Shown here one piece after another: positions 45,418 through 51,669 of a stretch of DNA of 51,669 nucleotides (within the stretch, counting starts at the first letter, position 1; the number at the start of each line of letters is the position of its first letter). Source of the DNA: Solirubrobacterales bacterium (lineage in GTDB: Bacteria; Actinomycetota; Thermoleophilia; Solirubrobacterales; Solirubrobacteraceae); contig JAFAWR010000009.1 of assembly GCA_019241635.1 (NCBI GenBank), positions 1 through 51,669 on the forward strand, in the 5' to 3' direction. The notes beneath the pieces were generated by a model. It saw nothing but the letters and a program-made list of their open reading frames with translations, ran no database searches and was not told the DNA's origin. Both the position numbers and the translations under genes were made by a program.

Positions 45418-46992
45418 TCAGCGGCCCTGCGCGCCCGGACCCGTGAAGAACTCCTCACCGGCCCGCACCGTCCCGGCCGCCTCGGCCTCGTGGCGAAGCG
45501 TGCGATCAGCCTCGCCACTCCAGGCGCCGATGGCCAGCATCTCGCGATCGGCGTCCATCGGGCTGCCCCCCAGGTCCCGGTTGACCACGCGCGCGCACTT
45601 GCGGCCCTCGGCGATCGCGGTGACCACCAGCGACTGGCCGATCCGGGCGTCGCCGCAGGCGTACACGCCGGGGGTGGAGCTGCGGTAGGTCTGCTCGGTG
45701 CGGATGTTGCCGCGGTGGTCGAGCTCGAGATCGAGCTGCTCGATCGCGCCGGCCCGCTCCGGCCCCTCGAACCCGATCGCGATCAGCACGAGGTCGGCCT
45801 CGAGCACGAACTCCGAGCCGGGCACCGGCGTCAGGTCGCGCGAGGAGGTTCCGGTCACCTTCCGCGCGTAGACGTGGCTGACGTGCCCGTCGCGGCCGCC
45901 GAAGCCGGTCACCTCGGTGCCCCATCGCCGCCGGCCGCCCTCGTCGAGCGCGTACGTCGACAGGGTGCGCTTGGGCGGGAGCGGCCACGGATGGCGCGCG
46001 TCGCGCCCGGTCTCGGGCAGCTCGGCGTACACGTCGAGCATCACGACCTTCTCGGCGCCTTCGCGGTGCGAGTTCGAGATGCAGTCCATGCCCGTGTCGC
46101 CGCCCCCGATCACGATCACCTTCTTGCCCGCGGCGATGATCTCGGTTCCGGGCTCCGGGGGCCGCGAAGGGCGCCCTTCCGTGGCGGCCACCCACCGGTT
46201 TCTCTGGTACAGGTAGTCCATCGCGTAATGAATTCCGGCCAGACTCCGGCCCGGGGCGTCGAGGTCACGGTGCACGCGCGACCCGGTGGCGACCACGAGC
46301 GCGTCGTGCCGGTCCTTGACTTCCTGAACGGTCACCGCGCCGCCCACGTCGGTGTCGTAGACGAACTCGATCCCCTCGGCGGCGAGGATGTCCACCCGCC
46401 GGTCGATCACCTGCTTCTCGAGCTTGGCGTCGGGGACGCCGAAGCGCATCATCCCGCCCGGGCCTTCGTCGCGCTCGTACACGGTCACCGTGTGGCCACA
46501 GCGGTTGAGCTCGTCGGCGACCGCGAGCCCGGCCGGCCCGGACCCGATCACCGCGACGGTCTTGCCGGTCCGCCGGGGCGGAGGGCTCGGGACGACCCAG
46601 CCCTCGTCGAACGCGCGCTCGGCGATCGCCATCTCGATCTGCTCGATGGTCACCGGATCGTCGTTGATGGCCAGTACGCAGGCCGACTCGCACGGCGCCG
46701 GGCAGATGCGCCCGGTGAACTCCGGGAAGTTGTTGGTGGCGTGCAGCTGGTCGATCGCCTCGCGCCACTTGCCGCGGTACACCAGGTCGTTCCAGTCCGG
46801 GATCAGGTTGCCGAGCGGGCAGCCTTCGTGGCAGAACGGAATGCCGCAGTCCATGCACCGGGCGCCCTGGCGGCGCAGCTCGCTCTCCGGCTGCAGCTCG
46901 AAGTAGCGCTCGTGGTCGTGCACGCGCTGCTGCGGATCGCGCTTGTCGAAGCCGACCCGGTGGATCTTCAGGAACGCGCCGAGCTCGCCCAT
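45418..46992 (-). CDS. gltD: Glutamate synthase small subunit
   Basis: A 524-residue NADPH-dependent flavoprotein subunit of GOGAT. N-terminal Fe-S cysteines are in CMDCGIPFCHEGCPLGNLIPDWNDLV and CPAPCESAC; FAD site VAVIGSGPAGLAVADEL; MRFGVPDAKLEK; NADPH site VIVIGGGDTGMDC; FAD 2 PGVYACGDARIGQSLVV near residue 450. The start ATG 46992 has a TACGCT box 9 nt upstream. gltB, normally adjacent, is 1.7 kb upstream and separated by a plus-strand two-gene cassette, so gltD must use its own promoter. Confidence 0.96.
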   Translation of the reverse strand: MGELGAFLKIHRVGFDKRDPQQRVHDHERYFELQPESELRRQGARCMDCGIPFCHEGCPLGNLIPDWNDLVYRGKWREAIDQLHATNNFPEFTGRICPAPCESACVLAINDDPVTIEQIEMAIAERAFDEGWVVPSPPPRRTGKTVAVIGSGPAGLAVADELNRCGHTVTVYERDEGPGGMMRFGVPDAKLEKQVIDRRVDILAAEGIEFVYDTDVGGAVTVQEVKDRHDALVVATGSRVHRDLDAPGRSLAGIHYAMDYLYQRNRWVAATEGRPSRPPEPGTEIIAAGKKVIVIGGGDTGMDCISNSHREGAEKVVMLDVYAELPETGRDARHPWPLPPKRTLSTYALDEGGRRRWGTEVTGFGGRDGHVSHVYARKVTGTSSRDLTPVPGSEFVLEADLVLIAIGFEGPERAGAIEQLDLELDHRGNIRTEQTYRSSTPGVYACGDARIGQSLVVTAIAEGRKCARVVNRDLGGSPMDADREMLAIGAWSGEADRTLRHEAEAAGTVRAGEEFFTGPGAQGR

Positions 46993-47042: not shown

Positions 47043-48272
47043 ATGGCTGCTGTTCGCTGGGTGCGGGGAGGTCGGCGCTTAGGGCGGGCCTGGGCGTGGA
47101 TGCTCCGGGACAGCGGCCAGGCGACGCTCGAGTACGGCGGATTGCTGGTCCTAATCGTCGCGACGCTCGCCGTGGTGAGCTCAATCGGGATTCCCACGAC
47201 GATCGCGAATGCCGTGACCTGCGAGGTTCAACGAATCGAACTCGATCCCTGCGCCGGCGGTTCGACCCGAGCGGGTGCGCCTTCCGGCGCGGCCGCCAGC
47301 CCGATCGGGACAGCTGGAACTGGCCGAGCCGCCCTAGAGCAAGCGCTCGGTTCAAGGAGCCTGATCGACGCATGCGCCGGTGGCAGTAGCCCGAACGCGT
47401 TGGCCGAGCAGCAGGCTCCCGACAGCGCTGCGTGTAAGCAGCAACTCGCGCAGCTGAGCCCGAGATCCCTGGCCACGATGGCATTGCTGGCCGCGGCGCT
47501 CCAGGCCCAGCAGCCCGGGAACCGCGGGAACTTCGGGGTGCTACTGCAGAGCTACCTGCAGCATCCGGGCTGGGCCGTGATCGCCCTCTCGCCGATTGCC
47601 CAGGCGCAACAGGAGTCAGGCAACACGCTGCTGCAGAAGCTTGCCAGCAGCCCAGGCGACCTGGCCGACGGGCTGCTCGGGTCGCTGTGTGGCGGCTACG
47701 GCATCTGCCTGGGGGGAAACGTCGATACCCAGGCCTACCAGCAGGCGTGGCACGAATCGGCCCAGATCAACAAGATCACGACCCCGATCCTGCTGGCCAC
47801 CGGCCTTGGCGGTGTGCTCAAGGACGCCGCCGCCGGCGGCTTCAAGGCGATCCTCGCGCGTCTCGCCCCCCAGGAGGCGAAGACCGTCGAGCAGTCAGCC
47901 GGCGAGCTCGAGACCGGCTCCGGGGAGCTGCCGACGATCGCTGGCGGTTCCAACCCGCTTCCATTCACGATGGATGATGCTCAGTTCGGTGCCAAGGCCG
48001 GCAGGCACGCCCGCGAGTTCGGCCTCGACCCGAGCATTCCCGCCGACCGGGCCCAACTCCGCCAGAAGATCATCGACATCGCCGAGCATCCCGATGAGGT
48101 GGTCAGCGGGACGTTCCGCGGCCAAGGACCAGGAGGTACCCGCGGCCCGGTCGAGTTCAGGATCAAGGGATCGGACGTCGTGGTGACGACCCCCGACGGC
48201 CACTTTGTGACCGTACTGCCGGACGGAATCAACAACCCGTCGGTCCAGGCCGCCCTGGACAACACGCGATGA
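47043..48272 (+). CDS. Prepilin-leader polymorphic toxin candidate
   Basis: A 409-residue protein. Residues 1-48 form a type IVb prepilin signature: basic MAAVRWVRGGRRLGRAWAWMLRDSG, cleavage site after Gly25, then QATLEY with Glu at +5 and a hydrophobic helix (GGLLVLIVATLAVV). This is as in Flp and TadE pilins. A Cys-containing middle (residues 60-130) and a helical part (140-300) follow. The last 100 residues (from about MDDAQFGAKAGRHAREFGLDP) resemble C-terminal toxin domains of polymorphic toxins, with a beta-hairpin-rich end RGPVEFRIKGSDVVVTTPDG. The next gene overlaps by ATGA and looks like an immunity gene. The base composition seems lower in GC than gltB and gltD. The nuclease-type guess is unproven. 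Confidence 0.6.
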   Translation: MAAVRWVRGGRRLGRAWAWMLRDSGQATLEYGGLLVLIVATLAVVSSIGIPTTIANAVTCEVQRIELDPCAGGSTRAGAPSGAAASPIGTAGTGRAALEQALGSRSLIDACAGGSSPNALAEQQAPDSAACKQQLAQLSPRSLATMALLAAALQAQQPGNRGNFGVLLQSYLQHPGWAVIALSPIAQAQQESGNTLLQKLASSPGDLADGLLGSLCGGYGICLGGNVDTQAYQQAWHESAQINKITTPILLATGLGGVLKDAAAGGFKAILARLAPQEAKTVEQSAGELETGSGELPTIAGGSNPLPFTMDDAQFGAKAGRHAREFGLDPSIPADRAQLRQKIIDIAEHPDEVVSGTFRGQGPGGTRGPVEFRIKGSDVVVTTPDGHFVTVLPDGINNPSVQAALDNTR

Positions 48273-48703
48273 CCCCCCCGGATTCGATCGAGCGCCTGTG
48301 CGGCGCGCACATCGACGCGATCAGCGTCGAAGAACATGTGGCCGGTACGCAGCGCTCGCTGCTCTCGATCTACCTGCAGCTGCACAACCGCTCCAGCCTG
48401 AGGATCCGAGGCGGCCCGGGCGGTTGGGGGCTGTCGGTGGGCAGCGACCCACCCCGGGCCTATGACATGGAGCAATACGGACGGGTGGAGATCCGGCCGG
48501 CCGACCGCATCCTTGCCCGAGCCGTCGGCCAGGCCGCGACGGTGTGGACAGCTCACTCTCCAGAGGATGCGACTCCGGTCGGCTTCCGCTGGCGGAACTC
48601 GACGGGCACGGACATCGTTGTGTACTGCTACGACGACACCTTGCTGGTGGCACCGCCGGACGAGCTCGAGCTCGACGACGTGACGTACAGCGAGATCTGC
48701 TGA
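48269..48703 (+). CDS. Candidate immunity protein for the toxin-like gene
   Basis: A 144-residue soluble protein without signal or membrane segments, overlapping the upstream stop as ATGA (48269-48272). It has a beta-rich pattern (HVAGTQRSLLSIYLQLHNRSSLRIRGG, DIVVYCYDDTLLVAPPDELELDDV). No family is recognised. Small cytosolic protein directly behind and coupled to a toxin-like gene is the classical layout of an immunity gene in polymorphic toxin systems. The role is inferred from position only. Confidence 0.6.
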   Translation: MTPPDSIERLCGAHIDAISVEEHVAGTQRSLLSIYLQLHNRSSLRIRGGPGGWGLSVGSDPPRAYDMEQYGRVEIRPADRILARAVGQAATVWTAHSPEDATPVGFRWRNSTGTDIVVYCYDDTLLVAPPDELELDDVTYSEIC

Positions 48704-48707
48704 GTAG

Positions 48708-48725
48708 CTACGCCTACGCCTACGC
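48708..48725. repeat. Triplicated CTACGC hexamer at the gltB end
   Basis: Three tandem copies. On the minus strand they read GCGTAG three times, so gltB meets three in-frame TAG stops in a row. Confidence 0.9.
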
Positions 48726-51669
48726 CTCGACCGTCTCGCCGGCACCGGCGGCCGCGGCGGCCAGCGCATGCTTGTAGTCGCGTGGCATCACCTTGACGAA
48801 CCGCTCGCGCGCGCCGCGGTCCCAGGAGGCCAGCACGTTGCGCGCGACCAGCGACCCGGTGCGCGCCGCGTGCTCCGAGATCAGGTCGCGGACCTCGGTC
48901 TCGTCCTCGTCGGTGAGCTCGTCCAGGTCGACCAGTTCGAGGTTGCAGCGCCCCTCGAAGCGGCGGTCGACGTCGTAGACGTAGGCGATTCCACCGCTCA
49001 TCCCCGCCGCGAAGTTGCGCCCCGTGCGTCCGAGCACGACGACCCGGCCGCCGGTCATGTATTCGCAGCCGTGGTCGCCGACTCCCTCGACCACCGCGCA
49101 GGCGCCGGAGTTGCGCACGGCGAAGCGCTCGCCGGCCAGGCCGCGGAAGAACGCCCGGCCCGCGGTGGCGCCGTAGAGCACGGTGTTGCCGACGATCATG
49201 TTCTCCTCGGCTCGGAAGCGATGGCGCTCGGGCGGGCGCACAGACACGACCCCGCCGGACAGGCCCTTGCCGGCGTAGTCGTTGGTCTCGCCGCGCAGCG
49301 AGAAGGTCATCCCGGGGGCGAGCCAGGCGGCGAAGCTCTGCCCGGCCGAGCCGGTGAACGAGATCTCGATCGTCCCCTCCGGCAGGCCGCCCGCGCCGTG
49401 GCGGCGCGCGATCTCGCCGCTCAGGATGCCGCCGACGGTTCGGTTCACGTTGCGTACCGGGATCGGGCCTAGCTTGACCGCCTCGCGGCGCTCCACCCCG
49501 GCCGCGCACCGGCGCAGGAGCTCCCAGTCGAGCGCGTCATCGAGCACTGGCTGCTGGGCGCGGGTCCGCCTCCGCGGCGTGTCCGGCGGCAGGTCGGGCG
49601 AGGACAGGACCATCGACAGATCGACCCGGCTGGCCTTCCAGTGATCGATCGCCTCGTCCATGTCGAGCAGCTCGGTGCGGCCGATCATCTCGGCGAAATG
49701 GCGGATGCCGAGCGAGGCCATGATCCGCCGGACGTCCTCGGCCACCAGCATCAGGTAGTTGACCACCTGCTCGGGGGTGCCGCGGAAACGCCGGCGCAGC
49801 TCGGGATCCTGGGTGGCGATCCCCACCGGGCAGGTGTTCAGGTGGCAGACGCGCATCATGATGCAGCCCATCGCGATCAACGGCGCGGTCGAGAACCCGA
49901 ACTCGTCGGCGCCGAGCAGCGCCGCGACCACGACGTCGCGCCCGGTCCGCATCCCGCCGTCCACCTCGACCACGATCCGCGAGCGCAGGTCGTTGAGCAG
50001 GAGCGTCTGCTGGGTCTCGGCCAGGCCGATTTCCCAGGGAATCCCGGCCCCCTGGACGGAGGACTGCGGCGAGGCGCCGGTCCCGCCGTCGTGGCCGGCG
50101 ATCGTGACGTGGTCGGCGTTGGCCTTGGCCACCCCGGCGGCCACAGTCCCGACCCCGACCTCGGAGACCAGCTTGACCGACACCGAGCTGGTGGGGTTGG
50201 CGCACCGCAGGTCGTAGATGAGCTGCTTCAGATCCTCGATCGAGTAGATGTCGTGGTGCGGCGGCGGCGAGATCAGACCGACGCCCGGGGTCGAGTTGCG
50301 CAACCACGCGATGTAGTCGTCGACCTTGTGGCCGGGCAGCTGGCCGCCCTCGCCGGGCTTGGCCCCCTGGGCCATCTTGATCTGCAGCTGGTCGGCGTTG
50401 ACCAGGTAGTGGACGGTGACGCCGAAGCGCCCGGAGGCGACCTGCTTGATCGCCGATCGGCGCAGATCGCCGTTCGGATCCTTCTCGTAGCGACTCGCAT
50501 CCTCGCCGCCCTCGCCGGTGTTGGAGCGGGCGCCGAGCCGGTTCATGGCGATGGCCAGCGTCTCGTGGGCTTCGCGACCGAGCGCGCCGAGGCTCATCGC
50601 CCCGGTGGTGAACCGCTTGACGAGTTGCGTGGCCGGCTCGACCTCGTCGAGCGGGATCGGGTCCCCCGCCGGCTTGAACTTCATCAGACCCCGGAGCAGT
50701 GCGTGGCGGACCGATTCCTGGTTGGCCATGCGGGCGTATTCGGCGTAGGTCTCGGACGGGTCGCCGTTGCGGCCCTCGACCGCGTGCTGGAGCGTGGCGA
50801 TCGTGTCCGGGTTCCACACGTGCCGCTCGCCGTGGCGGCGCCACTGGAGCACGCCGCCGACCGGCAGCACCTCGCGGTCGGTGCGCGGATAGGCGCGGAA
50901 GTGGCGCTCGATCGCCTCCTGGGCCAGCTGCTTTAGCCCCACCCCGCCGATCCGCGACGCCGTGCCCGTGAAGTACTTGTTGATCAGGTCGGGCTCGAGC
51001 CCCACCGCCTCGAAGATCTGCGCGCCGCCATAGGACTGGATGGTCGAGATCCCCATCTTGGAGATCGTCTTCAACAGGCCCTTGCCGATCGCCTTGACGA
51101 TTCGCTTCTCCGCCTCCTCGCGGGTCAAATCCACGGGCAACAGGCTGCGGTCCGCGAGCTCATCGAGCGACTCGAACATCACGTACGGGTTGATCGCGGC
51201 CGCCCCGTAGCCGATCAGGGTCGCCATGTGGTGGATGTCGCGCGGCTCCCCGGACTCGATCACCAAGCCGGTACGCAGCCGCGTTCCGCGCCGCACCAGG
51301 TGGTGGTGGACCGCCGCCACGGCGAGCAGCGACGGCGTCGCCACGCGCTCGGCGCCCAGGTTGCGGTCGGACAGGATCAGGATGTTCGCGCCGTTGTCGA
51401 CGTAGCGCGCGGCCTCCTCGCACAGCGCATCGAGGCGGGCGTCCATCCCGTCGTGCCCCTGCTCGATGGGCCAGGTGATGTCGAGCGTTGCCGCGTCGAA
51501 GATCTCGTGCGAGACCTGGCGGAGCTTCTCGAGCTCGTGGTTGCGCAGGATCGGGGTGTCCATGACCAGCTGGTGGGCGTGCTCGGGACTCTCGGAGAGC
51601 AAATTGACCTCGGCGCCGACGCCGGCCGAGAGCGACATCACGACGTTCTCGCGGATCGGGTCGATCGGC
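48720..51669 (-). CDS. gltB: Glutamate synthase large subunit (5' end outside the window)
   Basis: The C-terminal 983 residues of GOGAT alpha. The frame stays open to the right edge; upstream of a possible GTG at 51641 it still reads [16 protein letters not shown], the usual GltB core, so the true start lies outside. Visible are the central domain, the FMN-binding synthase domain ([31 protein letters not shown]), the 3Fe-4S cluster cysteines ([19 protein letters not shown]) and the C-terminal glycine-rich beta helix. The N-terminal glutaminase domain is missing from view. It ends in three tandem TAG stops and is separated from gltD by the toxin-like cassette. Confidence 0.96.

Follow-up and report, generated by a model that had tools for sequence, protein, structure and literature searches.

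In a 51,669-nucleotide contig from a draft genome of a Solirubrobacterales bacterium (GenBank assembly GCA_019241635.1, contig JAFAWR010000009.1; the whole contig is referred to here as the window), two plus-strand genes lie between the minus-strand genes gltD and gltB. The locus raises the question of what the two genes encode and how they came to separate gltB from gltD. The first open reading frame (ORF) spans positions 47043–48269, with its stop codon extending to 48272, and encodes a protein of 409 amino acids (protein 1). The second, at 48269–48703, encodes a protein of 144 amino acids (protein 2) and shares the four bases ATGA (48269–48272) with the first. These positions agree with an earlier interpretation made from the DNA alone (the sequence-only reading), which proposed a mobile toxin-immunity-like cassette whose toxin carries a prepilin leader.

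From N- to C-terminus, protein 1 has a prepilin leader of class III (Flp/Tad type), a middle part, and a toxin tip. The best explanation for the locus as a whole, and one that we consider probable, is that the pair encodes an antibacterial polymorphic toxin made as a prepilin, together with its immunity protein, and that delivery is of a pilus type. That this is a polymorphic toxin-immunity pair with an N-terminal trafficking signal of a type that we found nowhere described as such is well supported. The source genome (label G000, in which the window is contig C183) is 4.42 Mb with a completeness of 75% and a contamination of 4.7%.

The toxin tip

Scans of the individual window proteins against Pfam, NCBIfam, and PHROGs returned rows at chance level only (best E-value 0.057). 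A profile of the tip made without the window sequence matches protein 1 with an E-value of 1.6e-37 among 1538 ORFs, so the toxin-like C-terminal region that was first proposed by inspection is real. The same tip is present at 41 loci across the genome contigs searched, where it is shared with other trafficking modules in several delivery contexts. These include the 3' ends of CdiA-like genes, RHS, HINT, and MuF-like contexts (all read by eye), as well as an orphan array in Pantoea where the tip is beside genes annotated as VENN pretoxin, cdiI, and Imm. The tip is also carried by G390 and G494, which belong to the phylum of the source. The tip alignment (A5) comprises the window and 29 of the 41 loci, the other 12 having been dropped as fragments, broken tips, or near-copies. 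The MuF-like examples are phage head proteins that by eye end in the same nuclease tip in Clostridia and Treponema (L053, L058, L059, L062, and L064), and the gene downstream is another immunity-like gene of ~80–100 codons.

The structure model of the tip (pLDDT 90.9) consists of two helices followed by a four-stranded sheet, which corresponds to the colicin D-like BECR fold. The top five rows of a Foldseek search are all colicin D (probability 0.95–0.99, TM 0.55–0.56), and when structures are ranked by Z colicin D is first (8.3, over 90 residues at 2.8 Å), followed by CdiA-CT and colicin E5 nucleases. The tip profile also matches the sequence of colicin D (E-value 2.3e-8) with the conserved lysine and histidine aligned. 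This colicin D histidine, His611, is the catalytic one. A Pfam scan of 30 tip sequences at E ≤ 0.1 identified PBECR3 in 9 (best 0.0068) and Colicin_D in 5 (best 2.3e-4); the unrelated RsgI_N was also identified in 7 of the 30 (best 0.058).

The predicted fold, together with the aligned lysine and histidine, relates the tip to colicin D and other BECR proteins (PBECR3, colicin E5, and RelE). However, its identity to colicin D is 15–20%, and the model of the immunity protein has no clear match to a solved structure. A structural, non-toxic domain at the C-terminus would have spoken against a toxin; the model instead predicts a nuclease fold. By analogy with colicin D, the tip is probably an RNA-cutting nuclease, with tRNA as its most likely substrate.

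The putative immunity protein

At all 25 of the tip loci tested, an ORF of at least 110 codons starts between −20 and +160 bases from the stop codon of the tip. These 25 of the 41 loci were picked after a larger downstream gene had been seen. A profile of the downstream proteins built without the window, from loci picked by their tip, matches protein 2 with an E-value of 1.2e-10 among 1538 ORFs. The immunity alignment (A6) combines protein 2 with 23 of the 25, which show 13–27% identity to it. Among the remaining 16 tip loci, 11 (from clostridia and Treponema) have a different gene of ~80–100 codons, two (L045 and L066) were not used, and no downstream gene is seen at the three whose tips are broken. 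Protein 2 is modelled as an all-beta protein (pLDDT 92.4), and comparison of the model with solved structures yielded no clear match.

A gene in the position of a cognate immunity gene therefore directly follows the tip, and homologues of protein 2 occur after the tip in many genomes; the sequence-only reading had noted that a second protein always found without the first would argue against a pair. The tip and immunity profiles, both built without the window, support interpretation as a toxin-immunity pair, and we place very high confidence in the nuclease tip and the immunity pairing taken together.

These matches also bear on a different interpretation of protein 1, as a structural or adhesive minor pilin whose C-terminal likeness to toxins is accidental. 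Adhesive modular pilins are known (PMC10191384), but a tip profile match at 1.6e-37, an immunity profile match at 1.2e-10, and the colicin D match with its aligned lysine and histidine make this extremely improbable.

The prepilin leader

The N-terminus of protein 1 reads MAAVRWVRGGRRLGRAWAWMLRDSG before and QATLEYGGLLVLIVATLAVV after the predicted cleavage site. Around this site the sequence is RDSG25/QATLE30Y, with glutamate at +5 after Gly25 and a hydrophobic stretch following. The class III leader described in the sequence-only reading (Gly25, QATLEY, and glutamate at +5) is thus present, and a separate profile of Flp-like pilins also picks this ORF. That profile, built from 16 short Flp-like pilins, none of them from the window, matches the toxin ORF with an E-value of 1.6e-11 among 637 window ORFs, with the runner-up at 3.2; the test is not fully independent because the loci of these pilins were found through likeness to the toxin or to the leader alignment. 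The curated Flp_Fap and Class_IIIsignal models do not match protein 1, for which no Pfam family was found at E-values up to 10. Nor do these curated models detect, at an E-value of 0.01, the Flp-like pilin encoded on contig C366 of the source genome. From its sequence features, the leader is highly likely to be a prepilin leader.

In the mechanism we propose, the positively charged leader, the Gly/Gln site with glutamate at +5, and the hydrophobic pilin helix would put the remainder of the protein on the outer side of the membrane. Once a prepilin peptidase had cut off the leader, the protein could stay in the membrane by its helix or be assembled into a filament of type IVc (Flp/Tad) or a related type IV kind, where it would serve as a modular minor pilin. 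When cells touch, the tip at the C-terminus would get to the neighboring cell and cut RNA, most likely tRNA, as comparison of its fold and residues suggests. The ATGA-coupled small protein, paired with the tip by conservation, would protect the producer and its kin by neutralizing the tip.

Alternatively, the module could be domesticated or act as an intracellular toxin-antitoxin pair, with the leader a relic. Two Rubrobacter genomes do have the immunity gene and the tip (shortened in one) on their own, with no trafficking part. However, the leader of protein 1 is intact and continues into an intact 409-codon frame, and leaders joined to other toxin tips recur across the order and the phylum, so we regard a relic as very unlikely.

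A shared middle part with a different tip

One congeneric genome, G062, encodes a protein homologous to protein 1 in its leader and middle part, with 54% identity across the aligned middle (alignment A1). The C-terminus of the homologue differs and has a weak match to Col-Pyo_DNase (HNH) that is below the cut-off (E-value 0.006). The next gene is also different, and its start overlaps the stop of the homologue. This copy has a frame break, and its pieces were treated separately. The middle part occurs in 2 of the 232 genomes of the order, the source genome and G062. A conserved N-terminal part with exchangeable tips is therefore represented by this comparison, in which one swap is seen. Comparison of loci shows that the tip and immunity gene are exchanged as one unit between delivery modules.

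Leader proteins in related bacteria

At E ≤ 0.001 the leader alignment has matches in 175 of the order's 232 genomes, a count that includes plain Flp pilins, and some genomes have many matches (10 in G062, 10 in G130, and 14 in G207). In a sample of 396 genomes from the phylum, 33 match the leader at E ≤ 1e-7. We read leader ORFs in 20 stretches from the order and 16 from the phylum sample, and scanned 33 long leader proteins or pieces against Pfam in batches of 1, 3, 10, 9, 1, and 9. The 33 are a non-random sample. The last batch of nine was picked after the ends had been viewed, and consists of L163 and 8 of the 14 phylum-sample loci with a long leader-pattern ORF; the other two phylum-sample loci have a short pilin only (L165) or no match (L170).

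Toxin modules exceed the curated Pfam cut-offs in 5 of the 33. The leader is joined to PT-HINT and Ntox24 in G062, to TSP3 and Endonuclea_NS_2 in G130, to PT-HINT and RNAse_A_bac in G483, to Tox-REase-5 in G336, and to RHS repeats in G502. A further eight have M4, calpain-type or DUF6782 peptidase, or Abhydrolase_8 or GDSL lipase domains, and the rest have TSP3 repeats only or nothing over the cut-off. The gene after the NS_2 endonuclease toxin overlaps it by four bases and is SUKH-like (E-value 1.7e-5, 25.8 bits against a cut-off of 27). By a rough count, a coupled small gene is found behind 26 of 41 leader ORFs compared with 33 of 298 other gene-like ORFs at the same loci, where the 41 are pattern matches that include at least one false example (an enolase, L173) and the 298 controls are gene-like by base composition only.

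With leaders preceding several toxin modules in relatives, pilin-leader toxins form a class far larger than the single gene in which they were first suspected. The many other toxins that appear to lie behind the same kind of front end in related bacteria point to a little-noticed route of toxin delivery. In its broadest form, this view would make the class III prepilin leader a trafficking module in general use among the polymorphic toxins of Actinomycetota, like LXG (type VII), PAAR/VgrG (type VI), or CdiA. Exchangeable toxins (nucleases, proteases, lipases, and RHS toxins), each with an immunity gene, would be presented or injected by Tad-type filaments or by a machine derived from Tad, and Tad systems would be contact-killing devices in monoderms. 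We consider the case for this broad view to be evenly balanced.

Several other kinds of leader protein were observed at these loci. A second leader protein with a related passenger is found in ten genomes of the phylum (L021:5628-7121 on contig C366 of the source genome, L020, L023, L112, L115:16902-18650, L122, L128, L166:13484-15280, L173, and L175). The three examples scanned have no Pfam family at E-values of 0.01–0.1, and in several cases a lipoprotein-like gene is next and a Flp pilin or tad genes are near. This protein may be a conserved modular pilin of Tad systems or a tip protein. A third family, with a passenger of ~500–600 amino acids, occurs at four loci in three genomes (L114, L125, L126, and L127; G062, G137, and G019). 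Six loci (L117, L167, L169, L171, L172, and L174) combine the leader with a lipase-like (Abhydrolase_8) or peptidase passenger and have next an overlapping gene that is lipoprotein-like by eye, as if the antidote were held outside the membrane in cases where the enzyme acts there. The source genome itself has a leader protein with a GDSL-type lipase passenger and no coupled small gene (L003:529-1713, contig C104).

Association with Tad machinery

Leader-protein genes lie close to tad genes on contig C13 of G207. A tad operon (CpaE, TadE, TadA, TadB, and TadC) ends at ~97 kb and is followed by two genes that by eye resemble a sensor kinase and a response regulator, and then by an array of leader-protein genes at ~99–129 kb that includes two copies of a Flp-like pilin. 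Leader-protein genes are also found on contigs C1 and C9 of this genome. Within the genus of the source bacterium, G070 has CpaE, TadA, TadB, TadC, and a Flp-like pilin on one contig. Across this genus, 8 of the 10 genomes that match the leader have a TadB/TadC-type pair, as judged from E-value and pairing, compared with 6 of the 18 that do not match, a co-occurrence that is expected in part because the leader profile also catches plain Flp pilins. The two genomes that match the leader and in which no such pair was seen are the source genome and G068, both 73–75% complete.

The sequence-only reading proposed a search for tad genes elsewhere in the source genome, and the outcome is mixed. Contig C366 encodes a Flp-like pilin, a second prepilin peptidase, a ParA/MinD-type ATPase, and another leader protein. 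However, no TadA, TadB, or TadC was found in this 75%-complete assembly, in which the T2SSE and T2SSF matches appear to be of the PilB/PilT/PilC type.

It is possible, though rather doubtful, that the leader is a mere membrane anchor, with the protein threaded by Sec, perhaps cut by prepilin peptidase, and displayed on or shed from the surface without any pilus. The lack of a detected Tad assembly ATPase or platform protein in the source genome is consistent with such an anchor, as are the leader-protein genes that lie far from tad genes (for example on contigs C1 and C9 of G207) and the large passengers, up to RHS shells, that may be hard to pack into a filament. However, the pilin rule (glycine, with glutamate at +5) is kept and the Flp-like pilin profile matches at 1.6e-11, the leader array of G207 adjoins a tad operon, and TadB/TadC-type pairs are more frequent in genomes of the genus with a leader match, even if this is partly expected.

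A Tad-like or type II-like machinery might also use the leader toxin as a piston-like pseudopilin and release it into the medium. The authors describing the Kil apparatus of Myxococcus were unsure whether Kil secretes toxins, for example in a type II-like manner (PMC8460266); we consider a pseudopilin unlikely here. For the class, export by a Tad machine is plausible, and delivery of the toxin that depends on a filament or on Tad has, in our estimate, close to an even chance of being correct.

Relationship to known toxins and pilins

Genes of the same tip and immunity families, closely coupled, are found at the ends of CdiA-like frames in Acinetobacter, Pseudomonas, and Enterobacterales, and in the Pantoea orphan array (most of these contexts were read by eye), and in this respect the pair resembles CdiA-CT/CdiI. 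However, protein 1 is a 409-residue actinobacterial protein with a prepilin leader, and no two-partner-secretion domain, filamentous repeats, or Pfam family was recognized along its length. It is not classed as CdiA, although its tip is CdiA-type.

Among pilins, the closest precedent is the modular type exemplified by PilB and PilC of Streptococcus sanguinis, in which a functional domain is grafted onto a pilin N-terminus (PMC10191384), and modular pilins reportedly occur widely, in hundreds of domain architectures (PMC6916266). The examples given carry adhesive domains and belong to type IVa, whereas protein 1 combines a Flp/Tad-like leader with a toxin and has its own immunity gene. A 2025 report in J Biol Chem lists Flp pilins, in one line, among the elements fused to an ARC (CD38-like, ADP-ribosyl cyclase) toxin domain (PMC12605009). 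That is a different toxin domain, and the section concerned gives no account of a class, a leader, machinery, or immunity genes. Kil, a Tad-like apparatus of Myxococcus xanthus, is needed for contact-dependent killing, and its toxin was stated in 2021 to be still undiscovered (PMC8460266). Myxococcus belongs to a different phylum, however, and no pilin-leader toxin is described for Kil in the portions of that paper available to us.

A literature search confined to open-licence papers identified, among the titles listed, no description of pilin-leader toxins as a class. The earlier remark that no such class is well described is therefore fair, except that Flp pilin-toxin fusions have received the one-line mention in print noted above (PMC12605009). 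Polymorphic toxins are sorted by delivery mode, and in 300,000 of the 354,187 characters of a large 2012 survey of their trafficking a pilin-type leader is not among the modes; the words pilin, pilus, pili, prepilin, fimbria, TadE, and Flp are absent, and the four occurrences of "Tad" are names of deaminases (PMC3482391). If pilin-type leaders do deliver toxins, actinobacterial Tad and Flp loci become candidate weapons, and the question of which toxin a Tad-like killing machine carries can be put to the test on specific genes, tips, and antidotes.

Insertion between gltB and gltD

Both flanking genes were identified by Pfam, confirming that gltB and gltD are split on the minus strand around the plus-strand pair. 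The start of gltD is 50 bases from the start of the toxin gene, and the two are divergent.

Table 1. Features of the toxin-immunity locus and its flanks in the window
Feature	Position	Strand	Evidence
gltD, left flank	45418..46992	-	Pfam Fer4_20 and Pyr_redox_2; adjoins gltB in relatives
Prepilin-leader polymorphic toxin, 409 aa	47043..48272	+	Tip profile, E 1.6e-37
Leader peptide M1-G25, predicted prepilin-peptidase site G25/Q26	47043..47117	+	Sequence; Flp-pilin profile, E 1.6e-11
Pilin-type hydrophobic N-terminus (E30 = +5), Cys pair C60/C70, residues 26-73	47118..47261	+	Leader alignment A2; residues checked
Conserved middle part, 54% identity to congener homologue with another tip	47454..47912	+	Alignment A1
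Toxin tip, BECR-fold colicin D-like; conserved K318 and H322 (H codon 48006-48008)	47955..48269	+	Alignment A5, model, fold search, colicin D profile match
Putative cognate immunity protein, 144 aa, ATGA-coupled, all-beta model	48269..48703	+	Window-free immunity profile, E 1.2e-10; alignment A6; model
gltB (3' part), right flank	48720..51669 (window end)	-	Pfam Glu_synthase and GXGXG

The 3' end of gltB was located in 22 other congeneric genomes, and in 15 of these gltD is directly next to it (within ~0.2 kb). Three have another gene between the two, two have another gene and no gltD within the 1.5 kb fetched, one shows no gltD before its contig ends 0.9 kb on, and in one the contig ends at gltB. 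None of the 22 loci has a match to the toxin at E ≤ 0.01. The adjacency without the cassette that the sequence-only reading proposed to look for in relatives is thus observed, and the pair is not a conserved feature of this junction. The pair also has a lower GC content at third codon positions than its flanks. No mobility gene was seen in the cassette, and no clear terminal repeats were found at the ends of the pair. The proposal of a mobile cassette therefore holds as an insertion between gltB and gltD in the source genome, but is not supported in the strict sense of mobility.

Three congeners have a different gene beside gltB on the opposite strand, in two of them between gltB and gltD (L134:475-1458, L142:448-1452, and L136:564-1484), and the junction therefore accepts insertions. 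This gene resembles a DNA glycosylase by eye, with no Pfam match at 1e-5. The source genome also contains a second, divergent gltB-gltD pair (L152, contig C160), in which the two genes are adjacent with no insertion.
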